Positions 8,174-23,636 of a DNA stretch of 23,980 nucleotides are shown in pieces. The DNA lies in IMG/VR virus record IMGVR_UViG_3300031553_000035, positions 1 through 23,980 of that record. One strand, 5' to 3'. Positions within the stretch are counted from its first letter, which is position 1, and every line of letters begins with the position of its first letter. The notes beneath the pieces are model-generated. The model saw nothing but the letters and a program-made list of their open reading frames with translations. It had not been told where the DNA came from and ran no database searches. Source of the DNA: a virus. A program made the translations under genes and the position numbers.

Positions 8174-8833
8174 ATCTCGCTCGTTTCACAAGCGCCGCAT
8201 GCTCCCGGCGCCGTGTGTTCAACTCTTCCCCTGTCAGCTTCTTGGTTTTCGCTGGTTGCAGTAGATGCTTCAGGCTGGGTAACCGCTTTTGCCGCTGCAG
8301 AGCCACGATGTGCCAGGCCAGCCGCACCGCCCGTTTCAGGTCCAGATCAGCACGCCAGGCTGCCGCGTCCAAGACCGCTAGCGTCTCCGCCGGCGTCATC
8401 AGCCAGAACTCTGTGACAGTCACGCCCGCCTTGAGTGCATTGGCCAGGAGCGTATCTATGCTCCAGTCTCGCTCCTGGCTGTCGCTGGGGGGCGCGTATC
8501 GGTCTCGCTGCTGTACGACAAGACACTTGATACTGCGGTGAACACGATTTTAGCTGCCGTTGCGAATCCGCATCCATCCATCACGTCGTACGCATCGGCC
8601 ATCGTGTATGTCCGTCGCTGGACCCCAGCGTCACGCCTGCCGTATTCCAGACCGGCGCGCATCAGAGCGGCGATATCCGCCATCCCGATGTCTCCGCTGT
8701 TTGCGTCCTGTGCCAGGCGGATGATCGTCTTGCCTGTGGCCTTTTCCGCCTCGGCAATCGCCCTGTTCGTCAGCAGGACTGGCAACTCCTGTCCTTCGAA
8801 CTCGATCATTCCCTCGCCACGAGCTCCACCCAT
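8157..8833 (-). CDS. Tail assembly chaperone G-T, made by -1 frameshift
   Basis: Joined product of 8833..8486 and 8486..8157, about 225 residues. Ribosomes read the G frame to the slippery heptamer at 8492..8486 (C CCC CCA), slip back one base and continue in the downstream frame through SDSQERDWSIDTLLANALK and the T region (LMTPAETLAVLDAAAW, DLDLKRAVRLAWHIVALQ). In lambda-like phages the G-T protein recruits major tail protein to the tape measure and is absent from the virion. The T frame has no good start of its own: a GTG at 8423 would give only an 88-residue piece lacking the segment just after the shift. The T frame runs open from a stop near 8550, which covers the overlap needed. Order between major tail protein and tape measure fits exactly. 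Confidence 0.85.
8443..8492 (-). promoter_or_regulatory. Programmed -1 frameshift signal
   Basis: The slippery heptamer C CCC CCA lies at 8492..8486 in the right phase (codons CCC CCA in the G frame). Six bases later comes a perfect 10-bp stem, GCCAGGAGCG (8479..8470) pairing with CGCTCCTGGC (8452..8443), with a 17-nt loop that contains the G stop codon. Heptamer, spacer and stem all follow the known design of -1 frameshift sites in tail chaperone genes. Confidence 0.9.
8456..8833 (-). CDS. Tail assembly chaperone G
   Basis: 125 residues, the unshifted product. It begins MGGARGEGMIEFEGQELPV and is mostly helical (NRAIAEAEKATGKTIIRLA, IAALMRAGLEYGRRD), like the N-terminal domain of siphophage tail chaperones. 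ATG at 8833 overlaps the stop of the major tail gene as TAATG, with GAGG ten bases upstream. An inner ATG nine codons in is also possible, but its GAGG lies too close. The frame ends at TAG (8458..8456), which falls in the loop of the frameshift hairpin. G is normally made in large excess over G-T. Confidence 0.82.
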   Translation of the reverse strand: MGGARGEGMIEFEGQELPVLLTNRAIAEAEKATGKTIIRLAQDANSGDIGMADIAALMRAGLEYGRRDAGVQRRTYTMADAYDVMDGCGFATAAKIVFTAVSSVLSYSSETDTRPPATARSETGA

Positions 8834-9240
8834 TAGCTGCCTACCTCAGTCCACGTCCCGTCGATCGTCATTGAGATCGATATGGTCGCCTCGCCCTGGT
8901 CTGGGAGCGCCTCGCTGAGCGACGTGATCAACGCAGTGGCTGTTTCATCGCGTCCGCTGGCTTCGACGCGCTCGATCAGAATTAGATCGCCGTCGCGCTC
9001 AGCGTCTCGCAGCGCCAGATATGCAGCGTCGTCCACGATGTAGAGTGCATCCAGCGATACACTCGCCGAATAGCGCCCCGCTAAGACGCGCTTCGCTCTC
9101 TCGTCCTTATTGCTGACGTCGATCTCATCATTGCTCTCGTCAAATGTCACATCCCTCTGGCTGCCCACCAGCGTGTATACTGGCACCAGCACTGTCCCCG
9201 TGTTGGCGTAGAGCAACACATCCGTCCCGTTTATTGCCAT
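8833..9240 (-). CDS. Major tail protein (tail tube)
   Basis: 135 residues. It polymerises into the tail tube. MAINGTDVLLYANTG at the start, then TFDESNDEIDVSNKDERAKR and GRYSASVSLDALY, are typical of the TP901-1-type major tail family, and the C-terminus ISMTIDGTWTEV closes the fold. The length is usual for the family. It has one of the strongest ribosome sites here, GGAGGAGGAC eight bases before ATG at 9240, as expected for an abundant structural protein. It sits between the tail completion gene and the tail chaperones, the normal place. Confidence 0.88.
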   Translation of the reverse strand: MAINGTDVLLYANTGTVLVPVYTLVGSQRDVTFDESNDEIDVSNKDERAKRVLAGRYSASVSLDALYIVDDAAYLALRDAERDGDLILIERVEASGRDETATALITSLSEALPDQGEATISISMTIDGTWTEVGS

Positions 9241-10073: not shown

Positions 10074-10427
10074 CTACGACCCCTCCTCCACTGTCGCCTC
10101 GTGCTGTGTCTCCATACAATCCACCTCATAGTGCACGCCAGCCAGGCTGGGCTCTCGGACCCCCATCACGTCCCACACATCGTCGCCCAGCTCCACCTGG
10201 TCTCCGCGCGCGATATCTGTGCCGGCTAATACATACAGCACGTGGCTGATCTCCCGCTGTTCCTGCATCCCGACCTCACGCTCGCGGCTCGATGCCGGCC
10301 TTATCCGCCCCTCTGCGGTCCCGTTGACCGCGTAACTCACCGACCAGCCACCCTGCCCGTCAGCCGTCCGGTCCCTGCGGTAGAACGTGAATGTGTTATT
10401 GAATTGGTGCTCGATTGCTGGACTCAC
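10074..10427 (-). CDS. Head closure protein (SPP1 gp16-like)
   Basis: 117 residues from GTG at 10427. Features: FNNTFTFYRRDRTADGQGGW, GTAEGRIRPASSREREV, then HVLYVLAGTDIARGDQVEL and VWDVMGVREPS, a beta-barrel pattern of head closure proteins. They plug the portal after packaging and form the tail docking site. I chose the GTG at 10427 because GGGAGGAG lies five bases upstream and because the GTG overlaps the zinc-finger gene stop as GTGA. A longer form from TTG 10454 or ATG 10442 stays in frame but has no ribosome site. The stop lies at the boundary of the dispersed repeat. Confidence 0.8.
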   Translation of the reverse strand: MSPAIEHQFNNTFTFYRRDRTADGQGGWSVSYAVNGTAEGRIRPASSREREVGMQEQREISHVLYVLAGTDIARGDQVELGDDVWDVMGVREPSLAGVHYEVDCMETQHEATVEEGS

Positions 10428-10624
10428 CGGCTCCTCCCGCATCGCCCGCAGCAAAACGCACTATCCGCATTGAATTCACCGCACCACCCGCACACCCATC
10501 CGCGCCGCTCGTGTATAGCCCGTTTTAACGTTTTAACGTTCAAACGTTTCAACCTTCCAACGCCACGCGTTCCAACTTCCCCCGTTCCAGCGTTCCAACG
10601 TTTCAACGTTCCTACGGGTTTCAC
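10424..10624 (-). CDS. Small RanBP2-type zinc-finger protein
   Basis: 66 residues. Its C-terminal half reads GWVCGWCGEFNADSAFCCGR plus CGRSR, an exact match to the RanBP2-type pattern W-x-C-x2-C-x3-N-x6-C-x2-C, so a single zinc-binding knuckle is likely. The N-terminal half is the translation of an AACGTT repeat run (TLKRWNAGT, GRLKRLNVKTLKR) and is basic. The GTG at 10624 overlaps the connector stop as GTGA, and its own TGA overlaps the head closure start as GTGA, so it behaves like a coupled operon gene. No strong ribosome site precedes the GTG. I recognise no known head-completion role; binding of nucleic acid or protein is only a guess. It could instead be a chance open frame. Confidence 0.55.
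   Translation of the reverse strand: MKPVGTLKRWNAGTGEVGTRGVGRLKRLNVKTLKRAIHERRGWVCGWCGEFNADSAFCCGRCGRSR
10431..10438 (-). promoter_or_regulatory. Ribosome binding site that decides the head closure start
   Basis: GGGAGGAG sits five bases before GTG 10427 and lies inside the last codons of the zinc-finger frame. No comparable site precedes the upstream in-frame candidates. Confidence 0.7.
10511..10617. repeat. AACGTT-core repeat run inside the zinc-finger frame
   Basis: Longest run of the family, with five AACGTT cores and degenerate units such as CTTCCAACG between. It stays open in the zinc-finger reading frame and encodes Leu-Lys-Arg-rich sequence. Confidence 0.8.
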
Positions 10625-11238
10625 TGTGCCACATACCTATACCTGCTCAGCGTATCCTTCTCGCTCAGCAGCAGCGTCCGCGATGCACTGGCACCCAGTA
10701 CCCCCTCGCCGATCCCGCCTCCGCCCTCCGCGCTGTACGTGATCGAGTGATCCCCCAGGCTCTCTGCCTGTATCCCTGGCACTGCGTCGACCTCCGCGGC
10801 CCGCAGGCCAGCTTGATACCGTCTGGATGCAGCCCTTGCACACACGCCAACCACGTCGTCTGGAATAGTCGCGTGCCCGTGCGTGTATGTCACCGTGACA
10901 ATCTGAATTCCTGCCGGCCAATTCTGCCCCACCCGGTGCAAAACGCCCCACTGCCCGAGCTGGTAGTCCTCGTCGGATCCCTCGATCAGCAACGTGCCAT
11001 CCTCTACGACCGATGCTACCGATGTCACAGGCAATTGCGGCAGAAATAGCATAGCCGAATGGCCGGAGCAATCGAGCGTCGTCTCATCGTCCTCCGTTTG
11101 CTCGATCTCCTGGTGCGTGTAATTCTGGATCGCAGCCGTAGCTTCCTCGATCGCAGACTCCACAGATGCAATTTTAGCCGCCCCCGTGATTTCGATCTGT
11201 AGAAATTGCTCTACGTCAGCCTGTGTGCAGAATCCCAT
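10621..11238 (-). CDS. Head-tail connector (adaptor) protein, gp6/gp15-like
   Basis: 205 residues, longer than the roughly 100-110 of HK97 gp6 or SPP1 gp15. The start MGFCTQADVEQFLQIEI, followed by ASVESAIEEATAAIQNYTHQ, is the usual helical pattern of connector proteins that sit under the portal ring. The middle (LFLPQLPVTSVASVVEDG, VGQNWPAGIQIVTVTYTHGH) and PDDVVGVCARAASRRYQAG match longer connector-family members. The end (GVLGASASRTLLLSEKD) also fits. ATG at 11238 has AGGAGAG upstream. A repeat run lies behind the start. Confidence 0.82.
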   Translation of the reverse strand: MGFCTQADVEQFLQIEITGAAKIASVESAIEEATAAIQNYTHQEIEQTEDDETTLDCSGHSAMLFLPQLPVTSVASVVEDGTLLIEGSDEDYQLGQWGVLHRVGQNWPAGIQIVTVTYTHGHATIPDDVVGVCARAASRRYQAGLRAAEVDAVPGIQAESLGDHSITYSAEGGGGIGEGVLGASASRTLLLSEKDTLSRYRYVAQ

Positions 11239-11326: not shown

Positions 11327-11533
11327 TCACTCTTCCGCAGTTCCCTTATTCGCCGCCGGCTTCCTGCTCTTGTTCCGGCGCGGCTTCTTCTCCTTCGTCT
11401 CCACCAGCAGGCCCCGCGCCAGCGCCTCCGCACGCGTCATCTTCACATACACGCCGGGCTTCCCCGGCATAGGCACCCTGATGAGCGTGCCCTTGTCGAA
11501 TTTTTGATCTCGTGGTGCAATCACAATCGCCAT
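11327..11533 (-). CDS. Small basic phage protein, function unknown
   Basis: 68 residues. The N-terminal part (KGTLIRVPMPGKPGVYVKMT) is followed by RAEALARGLL and then a Lys/Arg-rich tail (KEKKPRRNKSRK) that is probably disordered. ATG at 11533 has GGAGGT in ideal position. It lies between the accessory block and the connector, a place where many phages keep small unnamed head proteins. The basic tail could touch DNA, but nothing in the sequence proves this. Confidence 0.7.
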   Translation of the reverse strand: MAIVIAPRDQKFDKGTLIRVPMPGKPGVYVKMTRAEALARGLLVETKEKKPRRNKSRKPAANKGTAEE

Positions 11534-11535
11534 GG

Positions 11536-12216
11536 CTACCTCCGTTTTCTCTCCCGCCTACTCAAATTCTCATGGTACAATCTCTGCGCCTTCTCCACGT
11601 CGGCCGGCGCACAGCGTACGAATCGCCCCGGCGCAACCTCCAGCCTGATCAGGGTGCTGCCCGTCTTGCGCCGCCGCTTGCGGGTATCACCAGCCGCCCC
11701 CGCCAGGCGCTTCTCCTGCTGCACCCATTTCTTCTGGTCCACGCCCAGCCACGACCGAGGCAGCACGTACAGCCTGGGCTTCACAATGTGCTGTGCCCGC
11801 AAAAATGCCAGGCGCTGCTCTGCGTCCACGAATCTATCGATCTCCGCCTGCCAGGTCTGCATCAGCCTCAATCCATCTCCACTGCCGCGCACGAATAGCA
11901 ACTCGGGCGCGCACAGCAGCAACCGCAAATCCAACGCGACCTTCTGCGTCCGTGCTCTCTCTGCCTTGCTCCCCACCTTCTCCGCGACCCCGCCATAGCG
12001 CCACAACGGAACCGCCGCATCCCAGCGCTCCAAAAAGTGGAATCCATATTCCAGTAGGTGCCACGGAATCTTCACGCCGGGCCCCACGAGTACCGCCCGA
12101 TCGAATTCCTCGTCCGGAAAACCGGACGCAGCTACGATCGTCCGCATGCCAGCCTTTTTTGCACGCACGTGGATCCCCTTGTCGGCAGCCCTTATCACCA
12201 TCAAGTCATTTGACAC
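11536..12216 (-). CDS. Unrecognised basic protein in the accessory block
   Basis: 226 residues; I do not recognise the family. The N-terminal third has an alpha/beta look (MVIRAADKGIHVRAKKAGMR, FDRAVLVGPGVKIPWHLLEY). The middle is helical with charged stretches (QTWQAEIDRFVDAEQRLAFL), then VKPRLYVLPRSWLGVDQKKW. The C-terminal 60 residues are strongly basic (RKRRRKTGS, NLSRRERKRR) and could bind nucleic acid. GTG at 12216 with AAGGGG upstream; ATG five codons later is an alternative. It overlaps the methyltransferase gene by 11 nt, so it is part of the same transcription unit and may work with the glycosyl/methyl enzymes. Confidence 0.65.
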   Translation of the reverse strand: MSNDLMVIRAADKGIHVRAKKAGMRTIVAASGFPDEEFDRAVLVGPGVKIPWHLLEYGFHFLERWDAAVPLWRYGGVAEKVGSKAERARTQKVALDLRLLLCAPELLFVRGSGDGLRLMQTWQAEIDRFVDAEQRLAFLRAQHIVKPRLYVLPRSWLGVDQKKWVQQEKRLAGAAGDTRKRRRKTGSTLIRLEVAPGRFVRCAPADVEKAQRLYHENLSRRERKRR

Positions 12217-12670
12217 TATCGAGCCCCTTCACCAGCGTGCAATGGATTGAGCTGTGTGCCCGATTCAGCTTCGGGCCCTTGATGATCTTCCACTTTTTAT
12301 GAGGGTAGAATGCGTAGGCTTTTCCAAAGGCAGTTGTCGGGTCGAAAATCTCAGGCGTGTGCACCGAGAATTGCCAATAGTGCGAGGGATCCGCGAACGA
12401 ATTGTCGTGCCTCCAATACGGGAGCTTGATCACCACCTTGCCACCTGGCCGCAGAATCCTCCAGCATTCGTCCATCGATTGAAACAGCGTGATGTGCAGA
12501 TGCTCTAACACAGCCCGCGCGGCTACCACGTCGAAACTCTCATCTTCCCACGGCCACGGGATCTCATTCAGGTCCCACACCACGTCGATCTCGTTGCGGT
12601 GCTTGACCTGGTCGTGGTTCACGGCGCCTTCGATTAGTTGATTGCCTGCCCCCAAATTCAGGATATCCAT
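12206..12670 (-). CDS. SAM-dependent methyltransferase (Methyltransf_11-like)
   Basis: 154 residues. Class I fold: motif I is ILNLGAGN (residues 3-10), an acidic segment follows (VVWDLNEIPWPWEDESFD), then ARAVLEHLH (51-59) and ILRPGGKVVIKLPYW (72-86), the classic post-motif of small-molecule and sugar methyltransferases. The enzyme would move a methyl group from S-adenosylmethionine to an unknown acceptor. It is short and lacks a visible target-recognition domain, so a DNA methyltransferase is unlikely; no DPPY-type motif is seen. ATG at 12670, GGAGAG upstream, 13-nt overlap with the preceding methyltransferase. The neighbouring glycosyltransferases make a glycan acceptor plausible (inference). 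Confidence 0.8.
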   Translation of the reverse strand: MDILNLGAGNQLIEGAVNHDQVKHRNEIDVVWDLNEIPWPWEDESFDVVAARAVLEHLHITLFQSMDECWRILRPGGKVVIKLPYWRHDNSFADPSHYWQFSVHTPEIFDPTTAFGKAYAFYPHKKWKIIKGPKLNRAHSSIHCTLVKGLDSVK

Positions 12671-13308
12671 TTGCTCTCCAATGCCTCGATGTTCTCCCCA
12701 CGTTCACGGTAGAAGCCAGCCATCCCAATGCCGTCAGTGTCCCTTATTACTATGTCCGGCTCGCGGCTCAGATATTCGGCCATGCCATTGATAGCATCGA
12801 CGACAGGCTGCGAGCCCGCTGGTGTGAAATCGTGGAACAGAATCAGACCGCCTACACGCAGCCAGTTGAACCAAGGCACATCCAGAGCCACCCGCCGATG
12901 ATCGCCGTCCACGAATATCATGCCCAGCTTCCGACCCTGATACAATGCCAGCTCTTCCCACGATACCGCCAAGCGCACATCCACCTGCCAGGAGGCCAGG
13001 TTGTGCCGCGCCGTCTCGATCTGGGCCTCGGCAGAATTGAGCGTGACGATGTGCGCAAGCGGCGCCGCCTGCGCCATGATCGATGCACTATAGCCCGCCA
13101 ATGTTCCGATCTCCAATATAGCCGCGCCGAAGCGATTGTACTGGCTCGCCAACCAAAACAGTGCGGCTGCCTGGTAAGACAACATCATGCACGGGATATC
13201 GGCACTGCGCTGCATTGCCAGCTCGGCGCCCGGCGCCCGCGCCAAATAGGTCGCCAGAAGATCCGCTGGTGAAATTGCGTTAGATTGCGTGCGGTATTTC
13301 TTGCTCAT
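12658..13308 (-). CDS. SAM-dependent methyltransferase (Methyltransf_24-like)
   Basis: 216 residues. Motif I is AILEIGTLAGYSASIMA (63-79). The segment LGMIFVDGDHRRVALDVPWF (128-147) followed by LRVGGLILFHDF (150-161) is the hallmark of the Methyltransf_24 group, related to O-methyltransferases and often found in polysaccharide clusters. The residues VDGDH and HDF probably form the metal or substrate site, as in the family. ATG at 13308 overlaps the stop of the 71-residue gene as ATGA. The region before the start is a near-copy of the one before that gene (see the 21-base repeat). Acceptor unknown. Confidence 0.8.
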   Translation of the reverse strand: MSKKYRTQSNAISPADLLATYLARAPGAELAMQRSADIPCMMLSYQAAALFWLASQYNRFGAAILEIGTLAGYSASIMAQAAPLAHIVTLNSAEAQIETARHNLASWQVDVRLAVSWEELALYQGRKLGMIFVDGDHRRVALDVPWFNWLRVGGLILFHDFTPAGSQPVVDAINGMAEYLSREPDIVIRDTDGIGMAGFYRERGENIEALESKWIS

Positions 13309-13325
13309 TTACGGCCCCCACGCCT
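13305..13325 (-). repeat. 21-base junction repeat, copy 1
   Basis: Matches 13517..13537 at 20 of 21 bases. It covers the end of the 71-residue gene (RRGGRK and stop), the ribosome site and the ATGA start of the Methyltransf_24 gene. Confidence 0.85.
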
Positions 13326-13520
13326 CAACGCACCCAGCACTACATCATAGCGATCTATCCACATTCGATGATGCGTCACGTCACCCGCTGTCTCCACTTC
13401 CGCTTCGAGTGTCTGGCCAGCATCTGGGTCAGATTCCAAATAGTCGGCCCAAGCAACATGTGACTGGCGGGCCTCTTCGATATATGCAATAGCCGTCTGC
13501 ACATCTGGCTTGGTCGTCAT
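13305..13520 (-). CDS. Small acidic protein, function unknown
   Basis: 71 residues: MTTKPDVQTAIAYIEEARQS, HVAWADYLESDPDAGQTLEA, then GDVTHHRMWIDRYDVVLGAL and a basic end RRGGRK. It is mostly helical and acidic. The ATG at 13520 overlaps the glycosyltransferase stop as ATGA; a longer frame upstream would run in the shadow of that gene and is rejected. Its ribosome site is the GGGG-rich stretch of the junction repeat. Its length and helical make-up suggest a small partner protein, but no family is recognised. Both its start and its end lie in the two copies of the 21-base repeat. Confidence 0.65.
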   Translation of the reverse strand: MTTKPDVQTAIAYIEEARQSHVAWADYLESDPDAGQTLEAEVETAGDVTHHRMWIDRYDVVLGALRRGGRK

Positions 13521-13537
13521 TTCCGGCCCCCACGCCT
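13517..13537 (-). repeat. 21-base junction repeat, copy 2
   Basis: Same element as 13305..13325, here joining the end of the glycosyltransferase (RRGGRK and stop) to the start of the 71-residue gene. Confidence 0.85.
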
Positions 13538-15253
13538 GCCACCCTCCAATGCCGCCAGTGCATCCCAGGCTGCGGGGCCATCGATCCGTCCCGTGATCAG
13601 GCCCTTCCACCGCCTGGCCTTGCCTGGGTAATGCATCAGGCCCGCGGTCTTGATCCCCTTCGTATACTTCGGGAATGTGTTCCATTCATTTCCCAGTAGC
13701 AGCACCTTGAGCGGGTCCGTGTACATGGCCCGGATCAATGCCCCTTGATCGCGGCCAGCGTATCGCTCCCACTCCGCCAGCCAGCGTCCAAAAAATGCTT
13801 CCACCCGCTTATTCCGGGCAAATGCCCACACACCGCCGTTGTACTGCAGTGTGTGCAGCGTCCGGACCGCCCGTTTCAGGTCCATCAGCTCCTGCTTGTT
13901 ATTGCGCCGCTCGAATGAGTGCATCGTGTCCATCAAGTGCGGATCTTTGCAGATCACGAACTCCCACCCGGCCTCGATCCACTGAAAATACTGGTAGATC
14001 GGCGCGACCACTACCGTGTCCGCGTCCAGATACAGCACTGATTTCCACTCTGCCGGCGCGAGTTGGTACGCCTTCAGCTTTGCCCTTCGCCCCCCAATAT
14101 CGGAATCCGGCTGTTTGATCAGCACGTCCTCCGGCCCGATCTTGCGGTCGCTGCACAGCGCAATCGGAATGTCAGGCATGTGTTTTTTTGCGCTACTCAT
14201 CATTTTCGAGCACACCGTCCGGGCTGGATCACCGAAGGCTACACAGTAGATCCCCCGCGTCGATCCCGTCTTATGACTCATCGGTTCTCCCGCTCCCACG
14301 TTGACTTGTTCTGCCGTTTCAACGTTCTTGCGTTCCAACGTTTCAGCGTTCCAACTTTCCAGCGCTATGCCCGCGTCCACACCCCCGCTCAGCAGCTCCT
14401 CAAACGCCCGCTCGTGATCTGCAACCCAGGCGTCCACCGAGTACCGCTCCGTAGCCGCCCGCAGCGCCTTGCGATCTACTCGGCCGCGCGCCTCCATCGC
14501 CTTCCCCACTGCCTTCTCCAATGATTCCTCGTCTCCGCAGGTATAGCGATGGATCCCCAGCGTCTGTGGCAATTCATCCAGCAGGCCCACCCCCTCCGGC
14601 ACGACCACCGACACTCCACAGGCCAGCGCCTCGAGCGGCGGCATCGGGATCCCCTCCACGCGCGAGGTGCACACCAAGATATCCAGGCTCTGATAATACC
14701 CAGGCATCCGCGACCAACTGTACCGCGTCGTGGGCACTGGCCATCCACGGCCAGACGCCCGCCAGTCCACGCCCTTGCCCACCTTTGAATCGACCAGTGC
14801 CCGCGCTAGATCCTCGCCCTTTCGATGGTTGCGGTACGTGTAGCCCGAGAACCCTGCCACCAGCCGTTTCCCTGGCCGGCGCTTCGCGATCACAAACCGA
14901 TCCCGCTCCAATGGAGCCGCTACCTGAGCCGTTGGCCCATCTTTGCTGAGCCGTTTGGCGTACAATGCACACGTCGCGATGCGTAGATCAACGTGTGCTG
15001 CAACTTCGTCGAATAGCTTAGCTTTGCCATTTCCAGGAGGCATCTCTTCCCGGTGTGTGAAATAGGCCGCCACTGGTACATCCGGCCACGTTTTGACTTT
15101 CTGAACCTCGAAATAGGCCGACAAATAGATCATGTCGGCGTCCGTCTTCGCATTGGCGCTGAGCGTCCACCCCAGCCGGTCGGCCAGGATCCGCGACATT
15201 CGCGGAATGATACGGTCGCTCGTATGATTGCGGCAAAGTATGTGGACGCGCAT
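13517..15253 (-). CDS. Two-domain glycosyltransferase (GT4-like + GT8-like)
   Basis: 578 residues. Domain 1 (about 1-295) has a GT-B look; the end segment YYQSLDILVCTSRVEGIPMP then PLEALACGVSVVVP carries the E-x7-E pair of GT4 enzymes (E200, E208). Domain 2 (about 325-575) has a GT-A/GT8 look: RGIYCVAFGD, then AKLKAYQLAP, a DxD motif in VLYLDADTVVVAP (D410, D412) that would bind metal and sugar nucleotide, LQYNGGVWAFARNK and HYPGKARRWKG. The linker (298-324) is encoded by an AACGTT repeat run. An in-frame ATG at 14281 with GGGAG nearby could make domain 2 alone (254 residues). ATG at 15253 overlaps the HNH stop as TAATG. Donor and acceptor are unknown. Confidence 0.85.
   Translation of the reverse strand: MRVHILCRNHTSDRIIPRMSRILADRLGWTLSANAKTDADMIYLSAYFEVQKVKTWPDVPVAAYFTHREEMPPGNGKAKLFDEVAAHVDLRIATCALYAKRLSKDGPTAQVAAPLERDRFVIAKRRPGKRLVAGFSGYTYRNHRKGEDLARALVDSKVGKGVDWRASGRGWPVPTTRYSWSRMPGYYQSLDILVCTSRVEGIPMPPLEALACGVSVVVPEGVGLLDELPQTLGIHRYTCGDEESLEKAVGKAMEARGRVDRKALRAATERYSVDAWVADHERAFEELLSGGVDAGIALESWNAETLERKNVETAEQVNVGAGEPMSHKTGSTRGIYCVAFGDPARTVCSKMMSSAKKHMPDIPIALCSDRKIGPEDVLIKQPDSDIGGRRAKLKAYQLAPAEWKSVLYLDADTVVVAPIYQYFQWIEAGWEFVICKDPHLMDTMHSFERRNNKQELMDLKRAVRTLHTLQYNGGVWAFARNKRVEAFFGRWLAEWERYAGRDQGALIRAMYTDPLKVLLLGNEWNTFPKYTKGIKTAGLMHYPGKARRWKGLITGRIDGPAAWDALAALEGGRRGGRK
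14287..14291 (-). promoter_or_regulatory. Possible internal ribosome site for the GT8-like domain
   Basis: GGGAG lies five bases before the in-frame ATG at 14281, exactly where domain 2 begins (MSHKTGSTRGIY). It suggests that domain 2 was, or still is, a separate translation product. Confidence 0.5.
14299..14362. repeat. AACGTT-core repeat run inside the glycosyltransferase gene
   Basis: Two perfect AACGTT cores and several degraded units. The reading frame stays open and encodes the linker ESWNAETLERKNVETAEQVN between the two glycosyltransferase domains. Confidence 0.8.
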
Positions 15254-15855
15254 TAATCTACATTCCTGAAAGATGCAATCCTATCAAACCATTCTACGAA
15301 ATCGGCGTAGTTCATACCGGCCTTAGCACGATTGCAGTTTCCACAGCATGGCAGGCAATTTTCATATGTATACCCTTGGTTATTGTCGGCTCGATCGATT
15401 CCATTGAAGACATAAACGCCGTTGCCTAGACCTTTCGTGCTCGCCCTCGCGATCTGATATGGTTTAACTCCGCAATAGAAACATGCTTTTCCCGTCAGTT
15501 CCCTGAACTGTTCTTGTGACAGATCGAAATTCAATCCTCGTTTCACCGCTTCGTGCTCATATTTGACATACAGCTTGTTGAAGGCTGCCTCTCCTTCTGG
15601 GAGGGTTATTGATTGTCTGTATTCGTCAAACGCCTTTCTCCAGCTGTGTTCCCCAACATCCATCGTACGTTCCAAGTGCCAGCATCCGCATGACTTAGTG
15701 TGTCCTCTTCGAAGGCTATTCCCCGCGGCCGTTGTTCGACCACCGCAATCGCATTGGCATATCCAACGCGCTGCCCCACTCTTGCCATTTGGGGCGCGTT
15801 CAATGACGGTTAATCTGCCATATCGATTCCCAGACTCATCAATGAACGCGCCCAT
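15253..15855 (-). CDS. HNH homing endonuclease
   Basis: 200 residues from ATG 15855. The N-terminal module FIDESGNRYGRLTVIERA, W-x-C-x-C-x-C-G and GHTKSCGCWHLE is the DNA-binding part usual in free-standing phage homing enzymes. The C-terminal part has CFYCG, NGIDRADNNQGYTYENC and CCGNCNRAK, the zinc-ribbon and HNH-like core. I prefer ATG 15855 because family members normally begin M-x-x-FID; its AGGAGG is 12 bases upstream, rather far. A GTG at 15900 that overlaps the capsid stop (TAGTG) would add 15 residues. It likely spreads by cutting related phages lacking it near the capsid gene. Confidence 0.85.
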   Translation of the reverse strand: MGAFIDESGNRYGRLTVIERAPNGKSGAARWICQCDCGGRTTAAGNSLRRGHTKSCGCWHLERTMDVGEHSWRKAFDEYRQSITLPEGEAAFNKLYVKYEHEAVKRGLNFDLSQEQFRELTGKACFYCGVKPYQIARASTKGLGNGVYVFNGIDRADNNQGYTYENCLPCCGNCNRAKAGMNYADFVEWFDRIASFRNVD

Positions 15856-15899
15856 ATCGCTCTCATTCCTCCTATATCTGGGCAATTTGCCCAGATGCA

Positions 15900-17171
15900 C
15901 TAGCTCCCGCTCTCCAGATCCACTTCAACAAATCCTGAGGGCCGAATTAAGCCAAACGCCCCCCGCATCTCCGCCAGGATTGCGATCATGTTCCGGATGA
16001 AGAAGTCCGAGTGGCTGTCGCTGATTCGCAGCGATGCCAGCTCGCGATCCCAGAACACGGCCTTTTTCCAGTCTCCCAGGACTCCACTGCCTTGATCTAC
16101 GGTCTCGCTCTCGACGACCGGCAGCCCCCACAGGGACTTCACGCCCATCCGTGTTGGCCCGCCGAAGTAATAGCGGCCCGTGTCATCTGTCAGCAGATCG
16201 ATTGTCTCCCAATCCTCCGGGTTGAGCAGCCAGGCGGTCGGTTTCACACGGCCGCTTGTTCTGGCTGTAGTGATAGCCTTGCGAGCCGTCACCAGGATAT
16301 CCGTATTCCATGTCTGCGTCAGAATTCCCGATGTGTTCAGCACACCGGTAAAATTCGCGCCGATCCCTGTGCCGTTGATGATCTGATCTTCCCACTCCTC
16401 GTCCAGATCAGCCTGCAGCTCCTCATTGATAATGCCCTCGAGCTGCGCAGCGTCAGCCAACGCCCGACGTGTCGCCGGGATCCAGACTGCAATGGCCTTC
16501 ACGGCGGCAGTCACTTGCTCGAACGTCATCGCGCCTTCTGGTTTCTCGCCACTGATCTCGCCAGTCGCGCCTGCGTAATCCGTGACGTTCGCCTCGGCTA
16601 CCACGGTCGCCTCCGTGATCTTGGCCGTCTGGCGTACGAACTCCACCAGATCGCTGGTTGTGCGCCGGATTGATATCAAGCCCCGCAGCGTCAGCTCCTG
16701 TCGGCCCAGGGCCTCGTAGATCCCCGTGTAGTCCGTCTCGACGAATGCCCCAGCGCTGGTGTCGCTCGCGCCAGTCAGCAGGTCCTTGAACTGCACAGGC
16801 GGCGATTCCACCTTCAGCCCGTCCGGTACATAGCCGCTGGGCGCAATGCCCTTATACCATTCCTGGTATCCTGGGTCGCTCGTGAACTGCTCCCCCAGGC
16901 TCTTTCTTCGGCCCTTGACTACCACACGCTCCGGGCTGCCCACTGGCTCCTGCCCCGTGTCGGCGGCATCGCTCAGCTCCATGATCTCTGCCCTCAACTT
17001 GGTGTCCTTGGCAATCGCGTCAGTGATTGTTCGCGCCTCTGCTCCTAGCTCTCCAACGCGCTTCTGTTCGCTCTCCGTCATCGCTCGATCCTCGCTGTCG
17101 GACAGATGGATGATCGTATCCGCCTCCGCGAGCACCTCGGTCAGACGCTTTTGTGAAATCTGGTCACTCAT
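15900..17171 (-). CDS. Major capsid protein, HK97 fold
   Basis: 423 residues. It builds the icosahedral shell. Residues 1-90 form a charged helical scaffold-like delta region (QKRLTEVLAEADTIIHLSDS, then SEQKRVGELGAEARTI) expected to be removed by the prohead protease. The rest matches HK97-type capsids: TDYTGIYEALGRQELTLRGL, TRRALADAAQLEGIINEELQ, GTGIGANFTGVLNTSG, WLLNPEDWETIDLL, GRYYFGGP, MGVKSLWGLPVVES and REMRGAFGL-like end. ATG 17171 is chosen over the longer frame at 17216 because AGGAGGGG stands nine bases before it and because it begins one base after the protease stop. The gene follows portal and protease in the standard order. Confidence 0.92.
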   Translation of the reverse strand: MSDQISQKRLTEVLAEADTIIHLSDSEDRAMTESEQKRVGELGAEARTITDAIAKDTKLRAEIMELSDAADTGQEPVGSPERVVVKGRRKSLGEQFTSDPGYQEWYKGIAPSGYVPDGLKVESPPVQFKDLLTGASDTSAGAFVETDYTGIYEALGRQELTLRGLISIRRTTSDLVEFVRQTAKITEATVVAEANVTDYAGATGEISGEKPEGAMTFEQVTAAVKAIAVWIPATRRALADAAQLEGIINEELQADLDEEWEDQIINGTGIGANFTGVLNTSGILTQTWNTDILVTARKAITTARTSGRVKPTAWLLNPEDWETIDLLTDDTGRYYFGGPTRMGVKSLWGLPVVESETVDQGSGVLGDWKKAVFWDRELASLRISDSHSDFFIRNMIAILAEMRGAFGLIRPSGFVEVDLESGS

Positions 17172-17172
17172 T

Positions 17173-18369
17173 TTAGTTCCCCTCCTGCATTTCCTCATTC
17201 TCTCGTTGGATGTCATAAATCATAGCCCGAAGGGATCGATCGGTTGCATCCGGATTCCTCGGCGTACCGTCTCCGGCCTTGCCTTGATCCGCTACGTCCC
17301 CCGTCCCCTCGTCCTCATTACGCCCGTCGCCTTTCGCGCCGGACGAATTCAGGTCATCTAATCGTTGCCACTTCGCCAGCTCCTCATCAATGATCTCGCG
17401 GAGCAGCACTGCGTCGCTCTTCGCCCGCTTGACCGGATCCGCCCTTGCGTCACGCGAGGGCTTAGTTGCCTTCTGGCTCTTGATATCTACGGTGTGCGTA
17501 TTGACTCCAGCCCCAAGCATCACCGGCGAGACCTCGACAACGTCCAGCCCCTTCAGGAAAATCACGTCCTGGTCCTCGAATTCGCCTTCTTCCCAATCCG
17601 TCACATCGAATCCGTAGCTCCACTCCTGCAGGTTTCCCAATGCCTTGACAGTCTCGTATGTTTCCCGGCCGCCCTCCGTCTGCAGGAAAAACTTGCCCAG
17701 TATCAGAGCCTCGTCGTCATTCTCGCGAATCGTTCCCCTGCCCACTGGCAGATCCCCCCAGTTGTGGCCCCACGACGACACTCGTACCTCCTGGCCGTCC
17801 TGGAAGGCGCCGGGGACAGTTACCTCTCCGTCGTAATCGATCACATTCAGCGTCGCGAACACGGCCTCGAATTCCCCCGCTTGCCCATTATCAAGCAATT
17901 TGATCCGCCCTCGATAGTCCTTCCGCTTCATGTCCACCTTTTGCCTCCCTTTGCATTTCCAATCCCCAGTGTCGACGTCGGTATCGCGAAACCAATTGTC
18001 GATATAGTCGTGCCATTGCTGTGGGCGACCATCAATCTCGCAGCGCCTGTGCGCCTCCTCAGCGTCGATCTCTAGTAGCATTACGGTCCCACCAATCAGA
18101 TCTCGCAGCCGTGTAACCTCGTCGGCCTTCGGCGTTGCCGTTATGATCCAGGCGTTCTCACTTGGCGATTCCGCCAGCAGATCAAGCACGGCATCACGCG
18201 CTCTAAGCACATATGGCCGTATCTGATCATTATGTTGGTAGAGACCCAGCCCGGATAGCGCCTGATGCAGAGTGTCGTAATCGTACACGAGATCGCCAGG
18301 CAGCATGTGCTCCCGTACGTATGCCGATTTTCCCGCGCAGGGCGCCCCCGCTACGACTATCCGTGCCAC
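17173..18369 (-). CDS. P-loop kinase domain fused to HK97-type prohead protease
   Basis: 398 residues. Residues 1-145 are a small kinase-like P-loop domain: Walker A GAPCAGKS (8-15), GDLVYDYDTLHQAL, AWIITATPKA, VMLLEIDAEEAHRRC and WHDYIDNWF. Residues 147-398 are a U35-type prohead protease: EFEAVFATLNVIDYDGEVTV, VSSWGHNWGDLPVG (His202) and LQEWSYGFDV (Ser251). The protease processes capsid and scaffold during maturation. A lone protease is usually near 200-250 residues; ATG at 17931 (M147) could start one, with GGGAGG 12 bases upstream. GTG at 18369 has strong GGAGGAGGA. The role of the kinase domain is unknown. Two-gene fusion is read directly from one continuous frame. Confidence 0.87.
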   Translation of the reverse strand: MARIVVAGAPCAGKSAYVREHMLPGDLVYDYDTLHQALSGLGLYQHNDQIRPYVLRARDAVLDLLAESPSENAWIITATPKADEVTRLRDLIGGTVMLLEIDAEEAHRRCEIDGRPQQWHDYIDNWFRDTDVDTGDWKCKGRQKVDMKRKDYRGRIKLLDNGQAGEFEAVFATLNVIDYDGEVTVPGAFQDGQEVRVSSWGHNWGDLPVGRGTIRENDDEALILGKFFLQTEGGRETYETVKALGNLQEWSYGFDVTDWEEGEFEDQDVIFLKGLDVVEVSPVMLGAGVNTHTVDIKSQKATKPSRDARADPVKRAKSDAVLLREIIDEELAKWQRLDDLNSSGAKGDGRNEDEGTGDVADQGKAGDGTPRNPDATDRSLRAMIYDIQRENEEMQEGN

Positions 18370-20864: not shown

Positions 20865-23636
20865 TCACGCCGTGAACAATCCCCTGTCCTCATACACGGA
20901 TCGCCGTCTCGGCTCATGCCGCAGCGCCCGATCCAGCCCCATGATCAGCGCCACTATCCCGTCGATTTTCTCCCTCGATTTCGCCTTGTCCGGCTTGATG
21001 TTCCCCGCCGGATCTTGCCGCGCCACCAGGTTGTCCGCCATCCACGTCAGCACCGGGTTGTTCCCGTGGGCCAGCCTGTGCCCCAGTACCAGTTTCTCCA
21101 GTTCTTTCATCGGCCCACTCATCGATGAGAAGCCCTGCCCGAATTGCACGAGCCAGTCCTCCCCTCCCAATTCCATCAAGTCTGTCTGGATCTTCGTAGC
21201 GCCCCAGCGATCGAACGCCAGCTCCTGAATATCGTATGCCTGCATATCCTCGTCGATCTGCGCCAGGATGTAGCTGTAATCGATCACGTTCCCGGGCGTG
21301 GCTGTGATGTATCCCTGCCGCACCCATACATCGTATGGGACACGATCGTTGTGGATTCGCTCCTGCATCGATTCCTCGGGGATCCAGAATCGGCACAGAA
21401 TCTGGTACAGATCGTCTGGCGCCTGCGGAGGCATGATCAGCAGCAACGCGCTGATATCGATATTGCTGGATAGATCCAGCCCCGCGTAGCAGATACGGCC
21501 CCGCAATCCAGCCGCGTCTGCCATCGCCCCGCACTGTTTCCAATGCTCCATATTCATCCATTTCGTCTCGCTCTCTGTCCACACATCCAGCTCCAACCGT
21601 AGGAATGCGTTCAGCGCCGAAGGCATCTCTTTCGCGCGCATGGCCTTGCGCCGCATATCGTCCCACTTTTTCGAGACGCCCAGATTCGGATTCGCCTTGA
21701 TCCAGTTCGTCTCGTCTTCCCATTCGTCCTCATCATCCAGACTGTAGATCACCCCGAACCACGAATCGTCCTCGATCACGCCCGTGAGGATTTTCTCCGT
21801 GTAGTCGTGGAGCAGATAACAGATCGACTGGCGATCGAATCCACTCGTGGTGATGGCTGCCATCAACGGCTGTCTGCGCGATCCAGTCGCCGTCTCCAAT
21901 TGGTCCCAGACCTCGCGTGTTTTGTGCGCGTGCAGTTCGTCTACTAGCGCCCCGTGCACGTTCAGCCCGTCGATCGTGTCTGCATCCGCACCCAGCGGCT
22001 CGAATTTCGCCGCCGTGTCTTTGATGTGAATGTTGTCTTTGTAGATCGTGACCAGTCGCCGGATCTGCGGGCTGGATTTTGCCATCCGCGTCGCCTCTCC
22101 GTGCGAGAGCCGTGCCTGGTCCCGTTTGGTGGCAGCACTGTAAATCTCCGCCCCTGGCTCATTGTCTGCCACGAGTAGATAGAGCCCTATACCCGCGACC
22201 ATAGTTGTGTTGTGCGTTGGTATCAACCCCCGCCCCGCCAGATATAGATGCGATGGTGAATCAACTTGAATGCACCGCACTGGAACTGACTCAATTTCTC
22301 TCACGGCGACTATTTGACGATTTAACGCACGTGTCGGCTTGTGTGGTTGCGGTTTTAGGCGTTGTGCCTTTCGCTCAAGCCCAAATATGCCCGAACCAGC
22401 ATAGGCGAAAAATGTGATGCGGTATGCTGCACCACAATCGCGCCCATACAGCTTGGCGCGACGCTCTATAATGGACGCCTTGAACCCCAGGCTCGTGATA
22501 AGTTCGTGCACATCCTCCACCAATAGCGCGCTGACACTCGTATATTCACACTGTCCCGCCTTGGACACATAACCATCTGTGTCCATCAGCCCGCGCAACA
22601 ATGCCTTGCGCTGTTCAATCGCGCCCCGCAAATACAAGCGCGGTATATGCTTATTGCCCAACACCCCAAGCTCGCGCAACTTGGATGCCAGCGAATTATC
22701 ACGCGCCTCTTGAGTGCGATCTCCATCGCTCAATGCATACGTTGCAGTCTTACCATTGCGCCCACCATTGACCTCGCGGACAGGAACCCCAAGTTTCCGA
22801 ATACGTTCCAGAATCCAGTAATCGTCATCATGCGCAGTGATACGTCCACAAGTACTATGGCCATCACCAAGCCACGCACCCAGGATATACGGCGGAATTG
22901 GCAGGTCAATCTCTGGCAACTCGAGCGGCCCAGAAACCGGCACGCGGTGATTCCATTCTACACGCTTACGTTTCAGATTGAACGGGGAGCCCACTGCTAA
23001 CGTGTCGCGTATCTGCTTGGTAGTGCGTATATGCTGATCTTCCCAGGTACTCTTGGGGCCTCTGCCAGTGCGGGGGAGTCCATTCCTTCTCGCGTCAGTG
23101 TACCACAAATGCTCAGCATCTGCGGTTATCGTGCAACCATCAGAGAACTCCATCTCATAGCATGTTCTACCTATTTGCACATCTGTTATAAATGTGATAT
23201 GACACTGCTTGCCCTTTTCGTCGAACAGAACATCGCCAACCCGAACATCGCGAATTGTTGTCCAGCCTTTCGGAGTGGGCAATGGCGTGTCAAGACTCAG
23301 CGCCTTGCCATTCTTCCGTGCCACCTCCATATAGGCCGTACGAAATCGCCGCAGGCCGTCCTCCCGTTTCCACCCAAACAGCGACCCAACCACAAATTGT
23401 TGCCACGGCTCCAGTCGCATCACTTGGCCGGCCCATTCACCTTTCGAGTGTTTCAGCAACCGGAAAAACGCGATCGCAACTCGCGCGGCTGATTCATCGA
23501 ACCACAGGCCCCGCTCAGCGCCTGTGTCCAGATCGCGCCGGTGCCGTTCGCAGGCCAGCCGCACCGCTTTCGAGGCAACCTGTTGCCCGCTCAGCACGTC
23601 GTCGACATACTGGGCGGCGGTAAATTCACTCCGCAC
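20865..23636 (-). CDS. Large terminase subunit interrupted by an intein
   Basis: 923-residue precursor; 558 residues after splicing, normal for the family. It cuts concatemeric DNA and drives packaging through the portal. Exteins: RLEPWQQFVVGSLFGWKR and a Walker A of the form ARKNGK/TT (107-111 and 477-478), Walker B HGALVDELHAH with D566-E567, then TTSGFDRQS as coupling motif. The nuclease part has YAGLDLSSNIDISAL (D721) and LAFDRWGATKIQTDL, ending in REKIDGIVALIMGLDRAL. The intein sits between Lys111 and Thr477, inside the ATP site, so the enzyme should be inactive until splicing. GTG 23636, AGGAGA nine bases upstream, overlaps the small terminase end by 11 nt. Confidence 0.95.
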   Translation of the reverse strand: MRSEFTAAQYVDDVLSGQQVASKAVRLACERHRRDLDTGAERGLWFDESAARVAIAFFRLLKHSKGEWAGQVMRLEPWQQFVVGSLFGWKREDGLRRFRTAYMEVARKNGKALSLDTPLPTPKGWTTIRDVRVGDVLFDEKGKQCHITFITDVQIGRTCYEMEFSDGCTITADAEHLWYTDARRNGLPRTGRGPKSTWEDQHIRTTKQIRDTLAVGSPFNLKRKRVEWNHRVPVSGPLELPEIDLPIPPYILGAWLGDGHSTCGRITAHDDDYWILERIRKLGVPVREVNGGRNGKTATYALSDGDRTQEARDNSLASKLRELGVLGNKHIPRLYLRGAIEQRKALLRGLMDTDGYVSKAGQCEYTSVSALLVEDVHELITSLGFKASIIERRAKLYGRDCGAAYRITFFAYAGSGIFGLERKAQRLKPQPHKPTRALNRQIVAVREIESVPVRCIQVDSPSHLYLAGRGLIPTHNTTMVAGIGLYLLVADNEPGAEIYSAATKRDQARLSHGEATRMAKSSPQIRRLVTIYKDNIHIKDTAAKFEPLGADADTIDGLNVHGALVDELHAHKTREVWDQLETATGSRRQPLMAAITTSGFDRQSICYLLHDYTEKILTGVIEDDSWFGVIYSLDDEDEWEDETNWIKANPNLGVSKKWDDMRRKAMRAKEMPSALNAFLRLELDVWTESETKWMNMEHWKQCGAMADAAGLRGRICYAGLDLSSNIDISALLLIMPPQAPDDLYQILCRFWIPEESMQERIHNDRVPYDVWVRQGYITATPGNVIDYSYILAQIDEDMQAYDIQELAFDRWGATKIQTDLMELGGEDWLVQFGQGFSSMSGPMKELEKLVLGHRLAHGNNPVLTWMADNLVARQDPAGNIKPDKAKSREKIDGIVALIMGLDRALRHEPRRRSVYEDRGLFTA
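22209..23303 (-). other. Class 3-type intein with LAGLIDADG endonuclease
   Basis: 365 residues, precursor 112-476. It starts with Ala instead of Cys/Ser and ends His-Asn before Thr. The three class 3 marker residues are present: Trp67 in block B (ADAEHLWYT), Cys344 in block F (PVRCIQVDSPSHLYL) and Thr363 in block G (LIPTHN). In class 3 inteins the block F Cys is known to start splicing in place of residue 1. Between the splicing blocks lie two LAGLIDADG helices, ILGAWLGDG (140-148) and LLRGLMDTDGYV (235-246), each with its acidic residue, so homing activity is likely intact. The ends were set by the terminase motif and by the block motifs. Confidence 0.9.

Follow-up and report, generated by a model that had tools for sequence, protein, structure and literature searches.

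Why should a tailed virus carry a run of glycosyltransferase and methyltransferase genes between those for its capsid and its head-tail connector? The question is raised by the IMG/VR virus record IMGVR_UViG_3300031553_000035, whose whole 23,980-base stretch is termed the window here, and in which the recognised minus-strand genes form one head-and-tail operon. The block in question runs from an HNH gene through a 578-residue glycosyltransferase, a 71-residue open reading frame (ORF) termed p71, the methyltransferases MT1 and MT2 and a 226-residue protein to a small basic protein, p68 (Table 1). The original prediction, made from the bare sequence, had placed here two glycosyltransferase domains, two different methyltransferases, the 71-residue ORF and a basic protein, and all of these were found at their positions on the minus strand between capsid and connector. 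It left out p68 and the HNH gene between capsid and glycosyltransferase, and it missed the GT-A kinship of the 226-residue protein and the tailoring repertoire described below. We propose that the block is probably a glycan-synthesis cassette of modular build, which is expressed together with the head genes, attaches glycans to virion proteins and tailors their sugars. The proposal builds on what the sequences show: which genes are present, how they are conserved, linked and fused, the predicted folds, the catalytic motifs and the loss of a DxD motif. The virion is taken as the target because of the head-operon position on several phage backbones, the precedent of cluster O mycobacteriophages and the C-terminal residues of the candidate acceptors.

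Both glycosyltransferase domains reside in the 578-residue protein, which consists of a GT-B/GT4 domain (residues 1-290), a linker and a GT-A domain (residues 330-575). Over residues 180-256 the first matches Glycos_transf_1 (PF00534) and scores 34.9 bits, the cut-off being 26.4. In the AlphaFold2 model, which has a predicted local distance difference test (pLDDT) score of 87.7 and falls below 50 only in the disordered linker (291-320) and the last three residues, residues 1-291 gave VIA Z values above 20 against GT4 structures, indicating a GT-B fold. For the GT-A domain, Foldseek found GT-A enzymes, 4cjc and UGGT among them; the domain stayed below the curated cut-offs of PF01501 (15.6 against 24.3 bits) and PF03407 (14.4 against 22), so that we file it by name under neither GT8 nor Nucleotid_trans. 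In an alignment of 35 sequences, the other members being 50-69% identical to the window enzyme, E200 and E208 (EX7E spacing) and D410-A-D412 (DxD) are invariant. As methyltransferases, MT1 and MT2 are ordinary: both belong to class I and score over their Pfam cut-offs, the first being of the Methyltransf_24 and the second of the Methyltransf_11 type, and in MT2 the GxG motif and many other positions are invariant in 25 sequences. A weak match of MT2 to mad2, the sole basis for a reading as anti-phage defence, was set aside as generic methyltransferase resemblance.

The 226-residue protein, which is basic as predicted (net charge +19), found no match in the sequence libraries or in a profile search of solved-structure sequences, and fold comparison was therefore needed. 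The structure prediction that had been suggested for it returned a GT-A fold: the AlphaFold2 model has a pLDDT of 89.6, and its top VIA rows are all GT-A glycosyltransferases, the best being the metal-independent GT6 enzyme 4ayj (Z 9.8, root-mean-square deviation 3.6, 156 residues), with the capsid glycosyltransferase 2p72 of chlorovirus PBCV-1 at Z 9.3. These Z values lie little above chance level, and hence the sequence evidence counts more. Specifically, hhalign placed the profile of the protein in register with the GT-A domain of the operon's own glycosyltransferase at E=4e-4 (unrelated profiles, 0.34-0.35). Full-length relatives in other phages match the hidden Markov models (HMMs) of both the 226-residue protein and the GT-A domain (5e-21 and 1e-17 for the one at L061, 10485-11372, itself a Nucleotid_trans member over the cut-off) and keep a DADT motif, where the window protein has GPGV and the DxD is lost. 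Such intermediates, together with GPGV in place of DADT, indicate that the 226-residue protein is related to GT-A enzymes but has been shortened and has lost the DxD; we consider it a probable pseudo-glycosyltransferase and propose a partner role for it, either without catalysis or with catalysis that needs no metal. The mini-domain at its C-terminus recurs in p68 (hhalign E=8e-10; at least 0.15 in column-shuffled controls). A p68-like sequence is kept in the cassette-less relative L122, and the mini-domain would thus be an element of the head region that does not depend on the enzymes. In that relative (L122:681-4622) the gap between capsid and connector genes measures 527 nucleotides and holds only the p68-like protein, which is joined to a helix-hairpin-helix domain.

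Linkage, mobility and tailoring of the modules

A search with the glycosyltransferase returned 51 IMG/VR loci and seven loci in metagenome-assembled genomes (MAGs), and neither this enzyme, the 226-residue protein nor the tail-tube protein had a match among 50,697 cultured phage records. The MAG matches point to Dehalococcoidia, Anaerolineae, Thermoprotei, Sideroxydans, Zixibacteria and Eisenbacteria; several lie on contigs of ~41 kb, the size of a phage genome, so that binning errors are likely, and host assignment from them was rejected. When the gene order beside the capsid was sought in relatives, glycosyltransferase or 226-residue modules were found between capsid and connector in 51 of the 53 distinct loci with both genes (the exceptions are L122 and L189), and loci retrieved with capsid or tail-tube queries, which involve no selection on the glycosyltransferase, give the same position. 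The remark in the original prediction that most siphophages have no enzymes at this place is borne out by the 11 inspected cultured phages whose capsids are homologous. Over the 53 loci, the GT-A module was counted in 51, GT-B in 42, MT2 in 36 and MT1 in 16, the counts being affected by cross-matching of the GT-A and 226-residue HMMs.

The enzymes do not occur singly and unlinked in these relatives; they travel and fuse together. Fused ORFs, in counts that take in overlapping fetches of the same contigs, comprise GT-B with GT-A (102), GT-A with MT1 (11, the MT1 part being weak), GT-B with MT1 (5) and MT1 with the 226-residue protein (3; seen in L048, L049 and L080), and these fusions tie the modules to one pathway. 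The backbone also varies: the cassette lies between terminase and portal, both differing from those of the window, in L076; after a GpA-type terminase and portal phrog_21, again different ones, in L048; and, in L021, close to a capsid of the Phage_cap_E family. Re-fused modules on varied backbones mean that the cassette behaves as one functional, mobile unit, and the block is no chance assembly.

Between the glycosyltransferase and the 226-residue gene, relatives have a variable slot with Glycos_transf_2 (GT2) enzymes, Sulfotransfer_3-like and Sulfotransfer_4 proteins, extra methyltransferases, UDP-glucose/GDP-mannose dehydrogenases (UDPG_MGDP_dh), NAD-dependent epimerases (Epimerase) and a hexapeptide-repeat, acetyltransferase-like protein. 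The Sulfotransfer_3 matches are mostly below the Pfam cut-off, with L008 above it, and those to Sulfotransfer_4 are strong in L052 and L140. This repertoire points to a tailored glycan and not to a single methylation, and a limited literature search found no report that joins a phage-encoded sulfotransferase, a glycosyltransferase and the virion. One locus has, between capsid and glycosyltransferase, a radical S-adenosylmethionine (SAM) protein with a SPASM domain (L173:4227-4913), possibly a further modification enzyme.

GT2, UDP-sugar dehydrogenase, sulfo- and acetyltransferase enzymes are also found in surface polysaccharide pathways, and the cassette might instead remodel host surface glycans in late infection or lysogeny, bringing about receptor masking, superinfection exclusion or serotype conversion. 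A tyrosine integrase in 7 of 14 near-full-length phage contigs indicates that many of these phages are temperate, which fits such a role. We nevertheless regard it as unlikely, since on several phage backbones the genes are embedded in the head operon and late lytic expression would come too late for lysogenic conversion. Moreover, the window enzymes have no membrane segment (the highest 19-residue hydropathy in the block is 1.67), and neither a Gtr-type flippase nor a lipid-linked-sugar transferase was recognised among the block's genes. The original prediction had offered host-surface change beside virion glycosylation plus methylation with the late genes, and it is the latter that is best supported; the former is made less likely by the head-gene setting and the lack of a membrane-like protein in the block.

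A further alternative is that the target of the glycosyltransferases is phage DNA, which they would hypermodify as it is packaged. Glycosyltransferases with DNA as their substrate are known from phages (Pyle et al., 2024, as cited in PMC12619734), and in L076 the cassette adjoins the terminase. Sulfation, UDP-sugar oxidation and hexapeptide acetyltransferases, however, are unusual for DNA, and among 14 long phage contigs a thymidylate-synthase family member was found in one and a C5-methylase in three, so that we hold DNA as the target to be improbable. A Tet/JBP search matched 0 of 18 records, its positive control being silent too.

Candidate acceptors and proposed mechanism

In the mycobacteriophage precedent, the C-termini of capsid and tail tube are reported to carry the glycans (PMC12619734). 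In the cluster O phage Firecracker both proteins end in Ser (..LVGS and ..KGDS). Among distinct homologues of the window proteins, which are related sequences, so that Fisher values for them do not count as probabilities for independent samples, a C-terminal Ser or Thr occurs in 74 of 76 tail-tube proteins (97%), encoded by AGY, TCN and ACN codons, in 75 of 101 capsids and in 63 of 81 head-completion proteins, compared with 8.5% for the other window genes. The two tail-tube exceptions are L184, which looks like a mis-read frame, and the cassette-less L122, whose tail tube ends ..PSA and whose capsid ends ..LSV. The L122 tail tube is 64% identical to that of the window and lacks the terminal Ser. 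We regard the tail-tube pattern, as read from the sequences, as suggestive of glycosylation and the capsid pattern as a weak sign of it.

The figure for the head-completion protein, together with the mini-domain that the 226-residue protein and p68 have in common, would also suit a single complex of enzymes whose target is a different structural protein of the phage (head-completion, tail tip or fibres) or a soluble molecule, and not capsid or tail tube. To this we give little credence: enzymes of such type in cluster O, the closest precedent, modify capsid and tail tube (PMC11600133, PMC12363180), and the last codon of the head-completion gene is partly constrained by an ATGA/GTGA overlap with the next start codon, which explains its C-terminal Ser in part.

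Several points weigh against virion glycosylation by the cassette. The HK022 and Xeno capsids end ..SGS with no enzymes beside the capsid gene, which makes a Ser at the end of the capsid a less specific sign of glycosylation; given a Ser-ended HK022 capsid without such genes alongside, C-terminal Ser or Thr is not decisive. Likewise, L189, which lacks the cassette, has a capsid with Thr at its end; of 90 distinct capsids from phages that carry the cassette, 18 have a residue other than Ser or Thr there (Ala in one such group), and the cassette-less control for the tail tube is a single genome, L122. BLAST of Firecracker gp33-gp36, the counterparts of the Corndog enzymes considered below, gave no meaningful match to the window enzymes. 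Finally, the glycan on the particle is itself something that we infer.

For virion glycosylation we propose a mechanism in which the substrate, the order of steps, the identity of the sugars and the tethering are those that we infer. Either the GT4 or the DxD-bearing GT-A domain of the 578-residue enzyme would place a first sugar onto Ser/Thr hydroxyls of the capsid and tail-tube proteins, possibly at their C-terminal Ser/Thr, and the remaining domain, joined by the GT2 enzymes in relatives, would extend the glycan. MT1 and MT2 would O-methylate the sugars, which relatives may instead or also sulfate, acetylate or oxidise, and the p68-like tail of the DxD-less 226-residue protein may tether the enzymes to head proteins.

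Virion glycosylation in phages has so far been demonstrated, in the literature considered, only in a few mycobacteriophages, and a conserved, reshuffling cassette in a separate uncultured lineage suggests that glycosylation of the particle is a broader strategy. From the cassette one would expect virion glycans that are sulfated or tailored in other ways, and its gene sets, its pseudo-enzyme and the predicted acceptor residues are open to testing. More tentatively, and with considerable doubt, we suggest that it is a horizontally mobile, combinatorial virion-glycan cassette, widespread in uncultured siphophages, that decorates capsid and tail tube with methylated, sulfated, uronic-acid or acetylated glycans. 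It would be organised by a DxD-less pseudo-glycosyltransferase whose head-protein-like tail brings the enzymes to the particle, and virion surface chemistry would then be a rapidly diversifying phage trait.

Gene layout of the window

The operon runs from the small and large terminase genes through portal, protease and major capsid protein to the cassette block, and on through connector, head-completion genes, tail-tube protein and tail assembly genes to the tape measure. The description of the block as overlapping and co-directional is right as to direction and for overlaps of 1-13 nucleotides between neighbours, except between the 226-residue gene and p68 (a 2-nucleotide gap) and between p68 and the connector (an 88-nucleotide gap). 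In some relatives a large ORF lies between p68 and the connector (L055:12573-13592, L053:6796-8043 and L085:4598-6304).

Table 1. Features of the head-and-tail operon in and around the cassette.
Feature	Position	Strand	Basis
Major capsid protein, HK97 fold, C-terminus ..DLESGS; candidate substrate	15900..17216	(-)	Phage_capsid PF05065, E=2.7e-43
HNH / endonuclease VII-like gene	15253..15900	(-)	PHROG 374, E=1.2e-21
578-residue bifunctional glycosyltransferase, GT4 + GT-A	13517..15253	(-)	Pfam, alignment, AlphaFold2, Foldseek, VIA
p71, orphan 71-residue ORF, window-specific	13305..13520	(-)	No family match
MT1, Methyltransf_24-type SAM methyltransferase	12658..13308	(-)	38.7 bits against cut-off 26.3
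MT2, Methyltransf_11-type SAM methyltransferase	12206..12670	(-)	39.3 bits against cut-off 21.2
226-residue DxD-less GT-A-like protein, probable pseudo-glycosyltransferase	11536..12216	(-)	AlphaFold2, VIA, HMM intermediates, hhalign
p68, small basic protein; core like C-terminus of 226-residue protein	11327..11533	(-)	hhalign
Head-tail connector, downstream cassette border	10621..11238	(-)	Synteny across loci
Head-completion (stopper-like) protein, C-terminus ..EEGS	10074..10454	(-)	Assigned by position
Major tail (tail-tube) protein, C-terminus ..TEVGS; second candidate substrate	8833..9240	(-)	Assigned by position

The G+C content at third codon positions (GC3) of the glycosyltransferase, MT1, MT2 and 226-residue genes (~0.70-0.76) is that of the operon; with values of 0.49 and ~0.5, the HNH gene and p71 both look like recent arrivals. 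The HNH gene is not present at the same place in relatives and is, on this evidence, a recent insertion outside the conserved cassette. A 21-nucleotide direct repeat (95%) at 13305-13325 and 13517-13537 bounds p71 at both gene ends, as if it had arrived by duplication or recombination at a gene junction. It had no family match in the library searches and no relative at E<0.2 in the fetched loci; a 70-residue ORF of L055, tried as a relative, proved unrelated.

Two further genes of the operon have additions of their own. The large terminase (20865-23636) has at about residues 112-475 an insert that relatives lack, as judged by tblastn break points, and by its look this may be an intein. The portal gene of L036, L043, L055 and L056 is broken near residue 298 by a stretch matching the terminase insert (34-38% identity), a match that points to related inteins in terminase and portal genes. 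The prohead protease (17173-18369) has an N-terminal P-loop domain fused to it (weak AAA_33/AAA_18; PHROG 4581, E=3e-30); the fusion is kept in L027 and L063, and the P-loop part finds its match at another place of the genome in L039 and L077.

Comparison with known glycosylation systems

The original prediction called the block a candidate for an undescribed modification system, which does not wholly stand, as in cluster O mycobacteriophages the stretch between portal and protease encodes an O-methyltransferase together with two glycosyltransferases and an N-acetylglucosamine-transferase (PMC4351075). In Corndog these are O-methyltransferase gp35, glycosyltransferases gp36 and gp37 and N-acetylglucosaminyltransferase gp38. 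Common to both systems are soluble glycosyltransferases and a methyltransferase inside the head operon; they differ in that the window cassette lies between capsid and connector, that its domain architecture is another one, with a GT4+GT-A fusion and a DxD-less GT-A protein, and that the relatives of the window, unlike Corndog, add sulfotransferase, UDP-sugar dehydrogenase, epimerase and acetyltransferase-like modules.

Other systems are more distant. The glycosyltransferases of Che8 (gp110) and Myrna (Freeman et al., 2023, as cited in PMC12363180) are likewise phage-encoded and glycosylate virion proteins, whereas a linked multi-enzyme cassette beside the capsid gene is not part of their description as cited there, the comparison being one of published descriptions. 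PBCV-1 encodes a GT-A enzyme for its capsid glycan (2p72) that resembles the 226-residue protein in fold; the two are only 6% identical, and PBCV-1 is a eukaryotic giant virus with an unrelated capsid. From gtr-type serotype conversion the cassette differs in that no membrane flippase or membrane-bound glycosyltransferase family is among the window matches. Hence phage-encoded virion glycosylation beside head genes is already a known kind of system, and what is new here lies in the different enzymes, in the GT-A partner that lacks DxD, in the breadth of the tailoring slot and in a phage lineage that is separate and uncultured.

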